Positions 50,098 through 56,056 of a stretch of 64,000 bases of DNA are shown one piece after another. Both the position numbers and the translations under genes were made by a program. The DNA is from Tindallia sp. MSAO_Bac2 (GTDB lineage Bacteria > Bacillota > Clostridia > Peptostreptococcales > Tindalliaceae), in assembly GCA_003838145.1 (NCBI GenBank), contig QYZZ01000123.1:1-64000 (forward strand), given 5' to 3'. The stretch's first letter is position 1; the number at the start of each line of letters is the position of its first letter. The notes beneath the pieces were generated by a model, which worked only from the letters and a program-made list of their open reading frames with translations, was not told where the DNA came from and did not search any database.

Positions 50098-50547
50098 TTA
50101 TTCAGTCAGTTCGCGAAAACGAGCCTTTACTTCTTCTACCTGATCTTCTTCACGAATCAGCACAAAAATAGTATCATCACCAGCTATCGTACCAACAACC
50201 TCTTCGAAATTTGCTGCATCAATGGCAGATGCGGCTGCCTGTCCGGCTGCAATAATGGTCTTGATAACAATAATATTTCCAGCATGATCAATAGACACAA
50301 TAGACTCCTTGAATAGCCGCACCAGGCGCTCTGTCAGCATAGATTCCTGACTTCCCATAGCCGCATATTTGTATCGGCCGTTACGTGACATCTGCTTAAT
50401 AAGATGAAGTTCTTTAATATCTCTTGAAACAGTGGCCTGAGTGACATTCATGCCCATTTCCTTAAGCGCCCGGGTCAGCTCTTCCTGGGTTTCAATGTCC
50501 CGGTGACTAATAATCTCCAGAATTTTAGCGTGACGTATATATTTCAT
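50098..50547 (-). CDS. argR: Arginine repressor ArgR/AhrC
   Basis: A 149-residue arginine-dependent regulator. The winged HTH is at 1-70 (TQEELTRALKEMGMNVTQATVSRDIKELHL), with the C-terminal oligomerisation and arginine-binding region ending EVVGTIAGDDTIFVL. No arginine genes are adjacent; the tlyA-argR-recN order is a conserved Firmicute arrangement. Confidence 0.96.
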   Translation of the reverse strand: MKYIRHAKILEIISHRDIETQEELTRALKEMGMNVTQATVSRDIKELHLIKQMSRNGRYKYAAMGSQESMLTERLVRLFKESIVSIDHAGNIIVIKTIIAAGQAAASAIDAANFEEVVGTIAGDDTIFVLIREEDQVEEVKARFRELTE

Positions 50548-50577: not shown

Positions 50578-51399
50578 TTAAAACTGATGTGACTGTGATT
50601 CATTAACAACCGCTGTAACTTTTTCATTATCAATGCTTACATGATCAGCTATCGAAATTCCATCCTCCGCTTTTTGTGCCAGTAAGAGAAATTCGACATT
50701 GCCTTTAGGGCCTTTTATCGGAGAAAAAGTAAGATCCAGTGCCTTTAGCCCCCATTCAGGACAAAGGTTTAATATTTTTTCAATCACCTGTTGATGCACG
50801 GAAGCATCCCGAACCACACCATTCTTTCCAACCAGTTCTCTGCCAGCTTCAAATTGCGGTTTAATAAGAGCAACAATATAGGAACCTGGCTTTATAAGCG
50901 CTGTTACCACAGGCAAAACAAGTTTCAAAGAAATAAAGGAAACGTCTACGGAAGCAAAGTCGGCTGCTTCTTCCAATTGATCCGGCTGAACGTATCGGAT
51001 GTTGGTTCTTTCCATCACAACAACCCGTTCATCTTTGCGCAATGACCAATCCAGCTGGCCGTATCCTACATCAATGGCATAGACTTTGTTAGCACCGTTT
51101 TTCAGCATGCAGTCTGTAAAACCGCCCGTTGATGCACCAATATCAAGGCAAACCTTGTCCTTTAAACTTAATTTAAAGGAATTCAGAGCTTTTTCAAGTT
51201 TTAAGCCACCTCTGCTAACATAGGGGATATCCGTTCCTTTAACGACTATTTCTGCTTCTTCGTCAACCTTGGCTCCGGCTTTCTCTACCGGCATATTATC
51301 AACTTTAATGAGTCCAGCCATTAAAGCACTTCTGGCTTTTTCCCGGCTTTTAAAAAACCCTTTTTCCACCAACAAAACATCAATTCGCTGTTTTTTCAT
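50578..51399 (-). CDS. tlyA: TlyA-family rRNA methyltransferase
   Basis: 273 aa with an N-terminal S4 domain (RIDVLLVEKGFFKSREKARSALMAGLI) and an FtsJ-like SAM domain (CLDIGASTGGFTDCML, SFISLKLVLP). TlyA proteins 2'-O-methylate rRNA, and some were called haemolysins. The ATG at 51399 after AAAGGAAAAG is preferred over a longer open frame. It overlaps the end of dxs by 20 bases. Confidence 0.92.
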   Translation of the reverse strand: MKKQRIDVLLVEKGFFKSREKARSALMAGLIKVDNMPVEKAGAKVDEEAEIVVKGTDIPYVSRGGLKLEKALNSFKLSLKDKVCLDIGASTGGFTDCMLKNGANKVYAIDVGYGQLDWSLRKDERVVVMERTNIRYVQPDQLEEAADFASVDVSFISLKLVLPVVTALIKPGSYIVALIKPQFEAGRELVGKNGVVRDASVHQQVIEKILNLCPEWGLKALDLTFSPIKGPKGNVEFLLLAQKAEDGISIADHVSIDNEKVTAVVNESQSHQF

Positions 51400-53308
51400 G
51401 TCTTTTCCTTTCGTCTGACTGAATCGAAACAACTTTAGATGCATGATTCTTCCAGGCTTCTTGAATGCTCTCAAACAAGTCATCTGCCGTCAGGCCAACC
51501 TGCTTATATAAAGCCGTCATATCTCCCTGTTCTGTAAACTCGTCAGGCAGGGCAAAAATAGTTACTTTTTTCATTAAATCATGCTCCTGATATAAATGCT
51601 GCACCAGCGAGCCAAAGCCTCCAATTTTCTGGTTTTCTTCCATTACATATACAAAATCGGAAGTCTGTCCATATTCCAGCAATAACTGATGATCTAGTGG
51701 TTTTATAAACCGGGGATCAATCAGGGTACCCAGTATTCCGATTTCTTTTGCTTTTTCCAGCACTTCCAGCCCTACTCGGCTAAGACTGCCAACAGCTATC
51801 AGAACAAAGTCGCGCCCATATTCTTTTATAACTCTTCCTTTTCCTGTTTTAACAGGTGTATTATCAGTCGGAAGTGTAAAGGCCTGTCCCCGGGGATATC
51901 GGATCAACGAAGGCCCGGAAAGCGTCATGGTATGATTTACCATAGCTTTCAGGTCGCTTTCATCAGAAGGAGACATGATGGTTAAACCAGGTACAGCAGA
52001 AAGACACGAAATATCAAATACTCCGTGATGCGTTTCGCCATCATTACCAACAAGGCCAGCCCTGTCTACCATAAAGGTGACCGGAAGCCTTTGCAGGGCA
52101 ACATCATGAATAACCTGATCGTAAGCCCGTTGCAAAAATGAGGAATATACTGCAAAGAATGGCCTGAGACCTGCTACAGCCTGTCCTGCAGCAAAGGTTA
52201 CAGCGTGTTGCTCTGCGATACCAACATCAAAAATACGGTTGGGAAAACGATCCTTGAAGTTATTCAACCCTGTTCCATCCGGCATAGCAGCTGTTATGGC
52301 CACAATGCGTTCATCTTTCTCCGCCAGTGCTTCCATCGCAGAACCAGCCACCGCCGAAAAGTCTTTTGCAGAAGGTTTAATTTTCTTTCCGGTATTAACA
52401 TCAAAAGGACCAATTCCATGAAATTTTGCCGGATATTTTTCTGCCATATCATAGCCTTTTCCTTTTACTGTCAGAACATGAACCACTTTAGGTCCCTTAA
52501 TTTTTTTAGACAAATTAAGAGCCTCTGTCACATCTTCAATGTTGTGACCATCAATGGGTCCGATATAGGTAAAGCCAAGTTCTTCAAACAATACACCCGG
52601 GACAAAAAAATACTTGATTGAATCCTTGGCTTTCTCAGCTGTTCGATAAACAGATTTTCCAAGAGCCGGCAAGTGACCAATAAAGCTTTCAAGATCTTCT
52701 TTCAGCCGTGAATAAACAGGAAAACTGCGAATCCGGGTAAGATAATTAGACAGCCCACCCACATTTTCTGCAATAGACATTTCATTATCATTGAGAACAA
52801 CCGTAAGGTCTGTTCGATTTTGGCCTGCATGGTTCAGTGCCTCAAATGCCATACCACCCGTCAGAGCTCCATCACCAATTATTGCCGCAACCTGATAAGA
52901 CTCGTTTTTCAGATCTCTGGCTGTAGCCATTCCAAGGGCTGCCGAAAGTGAAGTAGCACTATGACCGGTGTTAAAATGATCATGAATGCTCTCATAACGT
53001 TTTGGAAATCCACTCAATCCGCCAAACTGGCGCAAAGAATCAAAGTCGTCCCTGCGACCTGTTAACAATTTATGCACATAGCACTGATGACCCACGTCCC
53101 AAACAACCTTATCCTGGAAGGTATTCAGAGAACTATGTAATGCAATGGTCAGTTCTACTACGCCAAGGTTTGAAGCCAGATGACCGCCAGTCTGAGATAC
53201 TTTTTCAAGTAAAAACTCGCGTATTTCTGCCGCAAGTTGTTTTTTTTCACGGTTATTAAGAGCTTTCAGATCAGATGGTGACTGAATCTGATGCAAATAT
53301 GAAGCCAT
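51380..53308 (-). CDS. dxs: 1-deoxy-D-xylulose-5-phosphate synthase
   Basis: The first enzyme of the MEP isoprenoid pathway; 642 aa with TPP site GDGALTGGMAFEALNHAG and transketolase domains (DRAGLVGNDGETHHGVFD). It joins IspH (22188) and IspA (55169) in isoprenoid synthesis. AAGGAGG lies 6 bases before the ATG. Its own promoter lies in the 89-base gap after oapA. Confidence 0.96.
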   Translation of the reverse strand: MASYLHQIQSPSDLKALNNREKKQLAAEIREFLLEKVSQTGGHLASNLGVVELTIALHSSLNTFQDKVVWDVGHQCYVHKLLTGRRDDFDSLRQFGGLSGFPKRYESIHDHFNTGHSATSLSAALGMATARDLKNESYQVAAIIGDGALTGGMAFEALNHAGQNRTDLTVVLNDNEMSIAENVGGLSNYLTRIRSFPVYSRLKEDLESFIGHLPALGKSVYRTAEKAKDSIKYFFVPGVLFEELGFTYIGPIDGHNIEDVTEALNLSKKIKGPKVVHVLTVKGKGYDMAEKYPAKFHGIGPFDVNTGKKIKPSAKDFSAVAGSAMEALAEKDERIVAITAAMPDGTGLNNFKDRFPNRIFDVGIAEQHAVTFAAGQAVAGLRPFFAVYSSFLQRAYDQVIHDVALQRLPVTFMVDRAGLVGNDGETHHGVFDISCLSAVPGLTIMSPSDESDLKAMVNHTMTLSGPSLIRYPRGQAFTLPTDNTPVKTGKGRVIKEYGRDFVLIAVGSLSRVGLEVLEKAKEIGILGTLIDPRFIKPLDHQLLLEYGQTSDFVYVMEENQKIGGFGSLVQHLYQEHDLMKKVTIFALPDEFTEQGDMTALYKQVGLTADDLFESIQEAWKNHASKVVSIQSDERKRHEKTAN

Positions 53309-53397: not shown

Positions 53398-53985
53398 CTA
53401 AGAAATATTAATTATTTTGGAAACCGCATGAACTAACTGATGGGATTTTTCAAGAGCAACGTTTTTACCAACGGCTTTACCGCCTACAGTTAGCGAAGCA
53501 ACAAATCCGCCTAATACTAAAGTTGCAGCAACCTGCTGTAATGAAGTAAGATTAGGCGACAGCTTCAATAAAATCGTTGCAGAAGCTACACCACTGACAA
53601 TACCGCATATATCGCCTACCACGTCGTTACAGATGTTGGAAACAATTCCGGCATTTTTCAGTAATTGAATTGCTTTTCGGGCTGAAGGCACCTTGTCCGC
53701 CGCCATAGCATGAAAAGGCTTTTCCGAAGCAACAGCAACAGCTATTCCAATCATATCAAAAAAAACACCAAGTAAAACAATAAAAACCAAAATGATAAAA
53801 GCAGGAATAACGCTGGACCTTATTAATATTTGTTCTGACAGATAGTGAAACCCGGCTGCCAGAAAAAAAGTCCAAAAGGATACCAGTGCCACCCACTTCA
53901 GATTATACTTTTTAAATAATTCTTCAATATGATTTTGTTCGGAACGTTCAATTCCGTTTTTAACCATCCTTTTCCATTTGGTCAA
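53398..53985 (-). CDS. oapA: OLE-associated membrane protein OapA-like (DUF21-like, four helices)
   Basis: A 195-residue integral membrane protein. A basic, amphipathic N-terminus is followed by hydrophobic helices at about 30-50, 58-82, 112-137 and 145-170. The stretch around AVASEKPFHAMAADKVPSARKAIQLLKNA resembles the DUF21 membrane domain of CNNM/CorC magnesium-related proteins. It lies immediately after the 0.6-kb non-coding block and before dxs, which is where OapA, the protein that tethers OLE RNA to membranes in B. halodurans, is found. The start is TTG, 9 bases after GGAGG. The identification is from context, size and topology. Confidence 0.82.
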   Translation of the reverse strand: MTKWKRMVKNGIERSEQNHIEELFKKYNLKWVALVSFWTFFLAAGFHYLSEQILIRSSVIPAFIILVFIVLLGVFFDMIGIAVAVASEKPFHAMAADKVPSARKAIQLLKNAGIVSNICNDVVGDICGIVSGVASATILLKLSPNLTSLQQVAATLVLGGFVASLTVGGKAVGKNVALEKSHQLVHAVSKIINIS

Positions 53986-54029
53986 CTCTAAATTCCTCCA
54001 TTAATCTTTCCAGGCATGCTATTTTAACC

Positions 54030-54654
54030 AGAAAAGCTGATAGCCTTTGTGAGCTATCAGCTAAAGCTGCAGTGGTAACAAGTCAGGTAAATTTTACGGC
54101 TTAGGTCCAGTAAGTTTTCCCAGACTTCTACTGCGTGTCGCCATCACAGCGGTTTCCCTTTAAAAAAGTCTCTGCTATGTCGCCATACGCAGAACTGGAT
54201 TGCCACTTAGTCCGCACTGTAATCCCTGACTCATCTCTTTGTGAACAGTCTAGGAGATTTCCTCAACAGGTTCACCGAATCTTAGCCTCTTTTGCAATGA
54301 AGGTTTCAAGCAGCAATAATTTTTTCAGCCGGGCCCTGGCTTCCAAAATCTGATCCACTTATCTGCCAACATCACTCAAGGCAGGCTACACTGTGCGCTA
54401 CGCTGCCTCATTAAGGACGCCTGCACAGGTTTCCACCTCTCCGGCCCGATTACCGGAGAAGCCTCCACGAAGCGAGGGTCAACGCCCGCATGCCATTGCG
54501 GATCGCCCCCATCTTCTTTACTCCCAGAATCGACCCACAACTGGGCGTCACAAGCCGAAACCAGAAACTTCATCGATGTGCCCTTCGACGGATTTTTAGG
54601 CCCGCCTTCAGATACCGGTGATTCTGACTAGAATACTGCACCACTGCATTCTGT
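54030..54654 (-). ncRNA. ole: OLE RNA (ornate, large, extremophilic RNA)
   Basis: About 625 bases without a plausible gene on either strand, clearly richer in G and C than the neighbouring intergenic DNA and full of local inverted repeats. The sense strand is -: a promoter precedes it, and a 10-bp hairpin followed by TTTTC closes it (54062-54035). Established knowledge: OLE is a roughly 600-nt structured RNA, encoded among isoprenoid and DNA-repair genes next to a membrane-protein gene. It forms a membrane ribonucleoprotein with OapA, OapB and OapC. Mutants in B. halodurans are sensitive to alcohols, cold and magnesium. Size, orientation, ispA/dxs setting and the adjacent OapA-like gene all agree. 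No covariance search could be run here. Confidence 0.85.
54035..54062 (-). terminator. 3' hairpin of the OLE RNA
   Basis: AGCTGATAGC and GCTATCAGCT form a perfect 10-bp stem with an 8-base loop, followed on the - strand by TTTTC. The U-tract is short, so read-through into oapA is possible. Confidence 0.65.
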
Positions 54655-54689
54655 AGTTAAAGTATATCATATTTGTTACAGGAACTCAA
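54654..54689 (-). promoter_or_regulatory. Sigma-A promoter for OLE RNA
   Basis: On the - strand TTGAGT (54689-54684), exactly 17 bases, then TATACT (54666-54661). The predicted start is A at 54654. The promoter begins only 20 bases past the yuiD-like stop, showing that OLE has independent expression. Confidence 0.75.
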
Positions 54690-54708: not shown

Positions 54709-55152
54709 TCATATCATCCACAGCGCAACAACAACCCCCAAAACCGCCCCTGCAAAAACCTCGATGGGTGTGTGTCCCACCAGCTCCTTAAGCTGTTCCT
54801 CCGACATTTTTCGGTCTTTCTGGTAATCTTTCATGATTTCATTAAGTATAATCGCTTGTTTGCCAACGGCATATCGGACACCTGCCGCATCATACATCAC
54901 GACAAAAGCAAATACCAGTGTTACTGTAAACAATGGTGAATCCCAGCCATAAATTTTACCCATCCCCGTTGCCAGACTCATTACAAAGGATGAGTGTGAA
55001 CTGGGCATACCTCCAGATCCAACAAATCTGAGAACATTAAATCGCTTATCAACAATCAATGTAAAGAGAACCTTGAGTGCCTGCGCAATAAACCAGGCAA
55101 TCATCGTTACCCATAAAAGTCTGTTGCTCCCAATTCCCTGAAAAAAATCCAT
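54709..55152 (-). CDS. Divergent PAP2 family protein (YuiD-like)
   Basis: A 147-residue membrane protein of the acid-phosphatase/vanadium-dependent-haloperoxidase-related group (YuiD). About four helices are visible, with the motif GGMPSSHSSFVMSLATGMG containing the Ser-His phosphatase-like signature, and EVFAGAVLGVVVAL at the end. It may act on undecaprenyl- or prenyl-diphosphate-like lipids, which would fit its place after ispA; this is inference. It starts 16 bases after ispA, with GGAGGGC before the ATG. Confidence 0.85.
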   Translation of the reverse strand: MDFFQGIGSNRLLWVTMIAWFIAQALKVLFTLIVDKRFNVLRFVGSGGMPSSHSSFVMSLATGMGKIYGWDSPLFTVTLVFAFVVMYDAAGVRYAVGKQAIILNEIMKDYQKDRKMSEEQLKELVGHTPIEVFAGAVLGVVVALWMI

Positions 55153-55168: not shown

Positions 55169-56056
55169 TCATGAACGACGATTCACTAATGCTTCTGTTA
55201 ATGATCGTAGAAAATCAGCTTTTTCGCCATATGGATTAAATGCTTCCAATACTTGCTGCGTTAACTCGTTAATCTTTTTGCGGGATTTTTCAATCCCATA
55301 AAGTGCCGGATACGTAGCTTTTTTATTTTTCTCATCGCTACCAACCGGTTTACCCATTTCCGCTGCATCCCCTTCAATATCCAGCAAGTCATCCTGAATT
55401 TGAAACGCGGTGCCCAGAGCATAACCAATATTTTCCCACTGATCAGCTTCTTTGTCATCCACTCCAGCCATTTGGGCACCAGCCTTAACAGCTGCTGAAA
55501 TCAATGCGCCGGTTTTATGATGATGTATATACGAAAGCATGGAATCATTAATCTCCTTACCTTCGTTTTGCAAGTCTGCAGTCTGACCACCAATCATTCC
55601 CTGCACACCGGAAGCATCCGCTATGCTTTTCATGGCTTTCAAACCGTGCATTGGCTCTTCCAGGGTCAGGGTGTTGTCTGTCATTATTTCAAATGCCCTG
55701 TTAAGCAAACCATCACCTGCCAGAATTGCTACCCCCTCACCATAAACAATATGATTGGTTGGTTTTCCCCGTCTGGTTTCATCATCATCCATGGCAGGTA
55801 AATCATCATGAATTAAAGAATATGTATGAATCATCTCCAGTGCGCAGGCGTAGGGCAGGGCAACAGCAGGTTTTTTCCCCAACATACCACAAACCGCCAG
55901 CATCAGCACCGGTCTCAGTCGTTTTCCACCTGCAAAAAGACTATATTTCATGGATTCAAGTACAATGGCGTTTGGCTCTTCCGTAAGGATAATATAGTCA
56001 TCAAGAGCTTTATTAATCATTTCTATATATTCATTCATCTCAGCCTTCCAGTCCAC
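55169..56056 (-). CDS. ispA: Polyprenyl (farnesyl/geranylgeranyl) diphosphate synthase
   Basis: Condenses IPP with DMAPP/GPP. 295 aa with the first Asp-rich motif in IHDDLPAMDDDETRRGKPT and the second in QIQDDLLD. The xseB-ispA-dxs neighbourhood is standard in Firmicutes; here a PAP2-like gene, OLE and oapA separate ispA from dxs. The 3-base gap to xseB suggests coupling. Confidence 0.95.
   Translation of the reverse strand: MDWKAEMNEYIEMINKALDDYIILTEEPNAIVLESMKYSLFAGGKRLRPVLMLAVCGMLGKKPAVALPYACALEMIHTYSLIHDDLPAMDDDETRRGKPTNHIVYGEGVAILAGDGLLNRAFEIMTDNTLTLEEPMHGLKAMKSIADASGVQGMIGGQTADLQNEGKEINDSMLSYIHHHKTGALISAAVKAGAQMAGVDDKEADQWENIGYALGTAFQIQDDLLDIEGDAAEMGKPVGSDEKNKKATYPALYGIEKSRKKINELTQQVLEAFNPYGEKADFLRSLTEALVNRRS

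Follow-up and report, generated by a model that had tools for sequence, protein, structure and literature searches.

The question raised by this locus of Tindallia sp. MSAO_Bac2, a member of the Peptostreptococcales, is what is encoded in a long gap within an otherwise packed operon. In the window, i.e., the whole stretch of 64,000 nucleotides analysed, the minus-strand gene order is ispA, yuiD (DUF212), the gap, oapA, dxs, tlyA, argR and recN, the names tlyA, argR and recN having been given from sequence alone, without a family-library run. A first-pass annotation had described the gap as about 700 bases long, oriented with the operon, and without a credible open reading frame. These descriptions hold: the non-coding interval from yuiD to oapA is 723 bases, all genes are on the minus strand, and the only open reading frames are short ones (65-72 aa, both strands) inside covarying RNA, on which grounds a protein-coding gap was rejected. 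The annotation had also placed the gap between ispA/yuiD and dxs. The upstream side of this placement is right, but the gene immediately downstream is oapA, with dxs following it. argR (window 50098-50547) is in the same gene cluster as ole, and its product reportedly interacts with OLE RNA. The main features of the locus are:

55169 to 56056, minus strand: ispA, farnesyl diphosphate synthase (family matches)
54709 to 55152, minus strand: yuiD-like DUF212 gene, upstream of ole (PF02681, 3e-50)
54661 to 54689, minus strand: predicted ole promoter, -35 TTGAGT (54689-54684) and extended -10 TGATATACT (start predicted at about 54654; -10 kept in relatives)
54056 to 54660, minus strand: OLE RNA (RF01071), full length, 605 nt; OLE position p is window position 54661 - p (cmscan; helices covary in 37 sequences)
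54028 to 54062, minus strand: 3' hairpin AGCTGATAGC-loop-GCTATCAGCT with T-rich tail (sequence-preserved in relatives)
53398 to 53985, minus strand: oapA, OLE-associated membrane protein, 195 aa, TTG start (weak CNNM match; comparison with 11 relatives)
51380 to 53308, minus strand: dxs (TIGR00204, 778 bits)

The gap had been read as an OLE RNA gene, and a covariance-model scan of its minus strand supports that reading. The Rfam OLE model (RF01071) matched 54056-54660 over its full length, positions 1-616 of 616, with 482.3 bits and an E value of 8.7e-140 (cmscan), against a gathering score of 50 bits. No other Rfam family reached its gathering score anywhere in the window, and another RNA family in the gap was rejected for that reason. 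The RNA is 49.9% GC versus 39.1% for the window, as expected of a gap said to be richer in GC. The limits first given, 54030-54654, hold in part: the Rfam core is 54056-54660, the position near 54654 is the predicted transcript start, and 54030 marks where the terminator-like tail stops. Further, the gap is bounded by a promoter and a hairpin, as had been claimed, the former being TTGAGT-N17-TATACT at 54689-54661, which ends immediately ahead of the first OLE model position, and the latter lying at 54062-54035. An exact copy of the extended -10, TGNTATAAT, was found at the promoter position in 32 of 52 OLE loci versus 0.7% of shuffled flanks, and this conservation supports the prediction that ole has its own extended -10 promoter. 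The Tindallia genome has a single OLE copy, at this locus. Among other genomes, three copies were seen in G095 (C1, C6, C22) and two in G049 (C282, C403); in G033 the OLE match is in two pieces covering part of the model (C182:6059-6484), possibly a degraded or truncated copy; and the MAG RGIG5575 has two oapA-dxs loci (L029, L030).

The minus strand folded better than 20 of 20 dinucleotide shuffles (z -3.96), in agreement with the earlier remark that the gap is rich in inverted repeats; the plus strand was not outstanding by the same comparison (z -1.53). For covariation, the Rfam structure was projected onto an alignment of the window RNA with 36 OLE sequences (37 in total). The 149 model pairs were paired in 85.2% of cells, a percentage slightly favoured by the projection, which went via one of the aligned sequences; because the structure entered in this way, the double changes found in 111 pairs are stronger evidence than the paired percentage. 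The covariation score was 0.448, versus 0.196 for shuffled data and at most 0.163 when the structure was slid 1-3 columns. The model has 159 pairs in total, 149 of them present in the window sequence and 133 of these standard pairs. Covariation thus supports folding of the window RNA into the OLE architecture, for which the following parts were located:

54640 to 54647, minus strand: 5' strand of the end-closing helix P1, pairing with 54069-54076 (97.3% of cells paired; 5 of 6 pairs changed on both sides)
54069 to 54076, minus strand: 3' strand of P1 (same covariation)
54568 to 54576, minus strand: bulged strand UCGAUGAAG of the OapC-binding k-turn, second strand at 54515-54519 (conservation; site by homology)
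54469 to 54516, minus strand: P6 stem, equivalent of the bS21-binding site (model alignment and covariation)
54172 to 54192, minus strand: GNRA-capped hairpin, P13 by our own count, part of the OapB-binding region (model alignment and covariation)

P1, which is undrawn in the Rfam structure line, pairs AGUGGU with ACCACU. The OapC-binding k-turn site was defined in H. halodurans (PMC9723947); here its strands beside P5, UCGAUGA and AAG, are retained in nearly all sequences, ATCGATGAAG being kept in 36 of 37 with AAG on the opposite strand. In P6, the region to which bS21 binding has been mapped (PMC12054373), three GGG/CCC pairs are invariant across the 37 sequences. The exact CCUCCU anti-SD mimic is absent from the P6 site of the window OLE, and changes in these letters are tolerated for bS21 binding (PMC12054373). 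The P13 numbering was inferred from PMC9723947 and PMC12265935.

The RNA belongs to the full-length type rather than to variant 1 or 2, with P7, P8, P9 and the OapB-binding hairpin all aligned. It shares with the class RF01071 the full model match, conserved blocks, covarying helices, P1 and the k-turn, the GNRA-capped hairpins of the OapB region, the isoprenoid/argR/recN gene neighbourhood, and oapA directly downstream at 53398-53985, the neighbour that the annotation had named. It departs from the class in a P7 shorter than the Rfam consensus and in the sequence-preserved 3' hairpin that follows it. The host fits the Bacillota, typically anaerobic or extremophilic, that carry OLE. OLE was found in 4 of 4 genus genomes and 7 of 7 family genomes examined, and in 50 of the 98 genomes sampled from the order; among relatives that have names, the closest are a Tindallia MAG, whose OapA is 91% identical, and Anoxynatronum buryatiense. 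A published survey is said to list more than 2,800 OLE members. Every testable defining feature of OLE is present at the locus, and we put the probability that this is an ordinary full-length OLE RNA gene of the usual kind, and functional, at about 0.96, a figure for membership in that kind which leaves aside the role of the hairpin.

OLE lies upstream of the adjacent oapA, an order kept in Clostridia, Tissierellia and Bacilli loci. OapA is 40-76% identical to the OLE-adjacent proteins of 11 relatives, and its NDxxxD motif is invariant; judged by spacing rather than alignment, this motif is probably the counterpart of the D100/D104 residues changed in H. halodurans PM1 (PMC9723947). Like the MpfA/CorC (CNNM) Mg2+ exporters, OapA matches the CNNM domain, weakly, as published (PMC11332333); unlike them it has no CBS or CorC domain. 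Elsewhere in the genome are encoded OapB (94 aa, between map and infA; match to the solved OapB 7k9b, E 3.9e-14), OapC (87 aa, between rpoC and rpsL; match to YbxF) and bS21, and thus all four proteins of the particle, OapA included, are present. The H. halodurans ole-oapA locus likewise has its own promoter, ole followed by oapA, and OapB, OapC and bS21 in the genome, but the Tindallia locus has a terminator-like hairpin between ole and oapA. In H. halodurans, OLE is reportedly processed from a single polycistronic RNA spanning the cluster (PMC12265935, PMC9723947). No canonical MpfA Mg2+ exporter was found in the Tindallia genome, of 97% estimated completeness; rarity or absence of MpfA is a correlate of the OLE RNP, not strictly a defining trait, and is seen here. 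The sole CNNM protein besides OapA has 349 aa and no CBS domain hit (G000:C6:10591-11067; L117:2568-3617). Families f6 and f12 of the order also have CNNM proteins of about this size; the 349-aa protein is missing from the three other members of the genus. Among genomes at least 90% complete within the 98 sampled from the order, counted by hand, a CNNM match over the cut-off was missing in 11 of 47 OLE genomes versus 0 of 40 non-OLE genomes (Fisher p 0.0007, kinship uncorrected). This tally repeats the OLE-MpfA anticorrelation already published (PMC11332333).

Directly after P1 (54062-54028), and outside the Rfam OLE model, comes a CTGATAG-loop-CTATCAG hairpin, here AGCTGATAGC-tcacaaag-GCTATCAGCT followed by TTTCTGGTT, with a stability of -19.7 kcal/mol. 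A CTGATAG/CTATCAG stem (7 bp, at least 12 of 14 letters matching) was found within 85 nt of the OLE 3' end in 29 of 52 loci of the order; shuffles yielded the stem once in 10,400. By family the counts were 7/7 in f1, 13/13 in f3, 2/2 in f6, 1/1 in f7, 4/6 in f5 and 2/12 in f11, with none in f2, f8 and f12 among these 52 loci. The hairpin also stands 3' of OLE in Tissierellales, e.g., Soehngenia and Tissierella, and followed OLE in none of the Bacilli loci examined. Loci with the preserved stem 3' of OLE include L008-L015, L017, L018, L020-L022 and L024-L026, as well as L036, L037, L068, L071 and L079. A genome-wide repeat was rejected, there being one exact copy in the Tindallia genome and 16 places with the exact 8-bp pattern in 98 genomes, 13 of which are OLE 3' ends. 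The stem is all but confined to OLE in these genomes. The three non-OLE copies are isolated; some 90 nt downstream of one there is a cobalamin riboswitch match. A DNA operator is unlikely given the varying arm spacing (loops of 4-10 nt). Neither hairpin arm has an exact complement of at least 6 bases in the window RNA, and pairing of an arm with the OLE body as an antiterminator was set aside.

The hairpin could be a plain intrinsic terminator, undrifted by common descent, whose letters have no special function. We consider this quite plausible, if short of probable: the stable stem and T-rich tail suit it, and the absence of the hairpin from f2, f8, f12, most of f11 and the Bacilli loci indicates that OLE does not need it. 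Such a terminator fits less well with seven stem pairs that retain their letters around a loop of variable length and sequence, and do so across genera and orders in which OapA identity is about 50%. The stem differs in few places, and most of these differences are G-U exchanges. Further, the terminators of tmRNA and 6S RNA are not preserved in the same genomes, arm identity between genera being 0.52 and 0.60, respectively, versus 0.83 for OLE, as measured with one simple hairpin finder. Tentatively, then, the hairpin may instead be an undescribed functional 3' element of OLE in much of Clostridia and Tissierellia, with selection on the stem letters and not only on pairing. It would be a controlled terminator (leaky, or recognised by protein or RNA) between ole and oapA, with the OLE particle or its state setting the amount of OapA, or else an additional binding site in the OLE RNP. 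By terminating transcription in a leaky or regulated manner, the hairpin may set the OLE:OapA ratio. In many genomes oapA starts only 20-53 nt past the hairpin, so that a separate complete oapA promoter is unlikely there, and the simplest reading is that oapA is expressed by read-through or processing. The text of the searchable OLE literature makes no mention of a terminator at OLE, and the published stem names stop at P15 (PMC12265935). Counting the Rfam helices ourselves, we take P15 to be the last internal hairpin, which would probably leave the 3' hairpin without a name.

The same spacing, with its little room for an oapA promoter, also bears on a reading in which the oapA-dxs transcript begins with a long cis-acting leader and the element would be a riboswitch-like regulator rather than a stand-alone RNA. 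In its favour, oapA follows the element directly and in the same orientation, and the hairpin ahead of oapA resembles an attenuator. We nevertheless judge a leader very unlikely, since OLE is established as an abundant stand-alone RNA (PMC9723947, PMC12265935), ole has its own conserved promoter, and several lineages have no such hairpin before oapA. OLE could be a stand-alone RNA and the hairpin still play a part in oapA expression. A decayed or non-functional OLE copy, as might be suspected from a score of 482 bits versus up to 558 in the best members and from the shortened P7, is improbable in the extreme given the retention of the conserved blocks, scores of 462-487 bits throughout the family, an intact oapA, and the conservation of promoter and hairpin.

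Few structured bacterial RNAs of unassigned biochemical function are, to our knowledge, as large as OLE; a catalytic activity has reportedly been proposed for it. In Tindallia, ole would be transcribed on the minus strand from its own predicted extended -10 promoter; the hairpin would probably end most transcripts, giving an abundant RNA, and the remaining transcripts would read through into oapA. By homology with H. halodurans, the OLE RNA would assemble a membrane-bound RNP in which an OapA dimer would anchor OLE in the membrane, OapC would bind the k-turn beside P5, bS21 would bind P6, and OapB would bind P12.2/P13. By analogy with the published OLE functions (PMC11332333, PMC9723947, PMC12054373, PMC12265935), the particle most likely contributes to tolerance of Mg2+, cold, solvent and energy stress, and most likely takes over the work of the MpfA-type Mg2+ exporters of other Bacillota. 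One more OLE member adds little alone. What the locus offers for experiment is the 3' hairpin, which keeps its letters and stands between ole and oapA in many anaerobes; it could lead to a new binding partner, or to an understanding of how the ratio of RNA to protein in the particle is determined.
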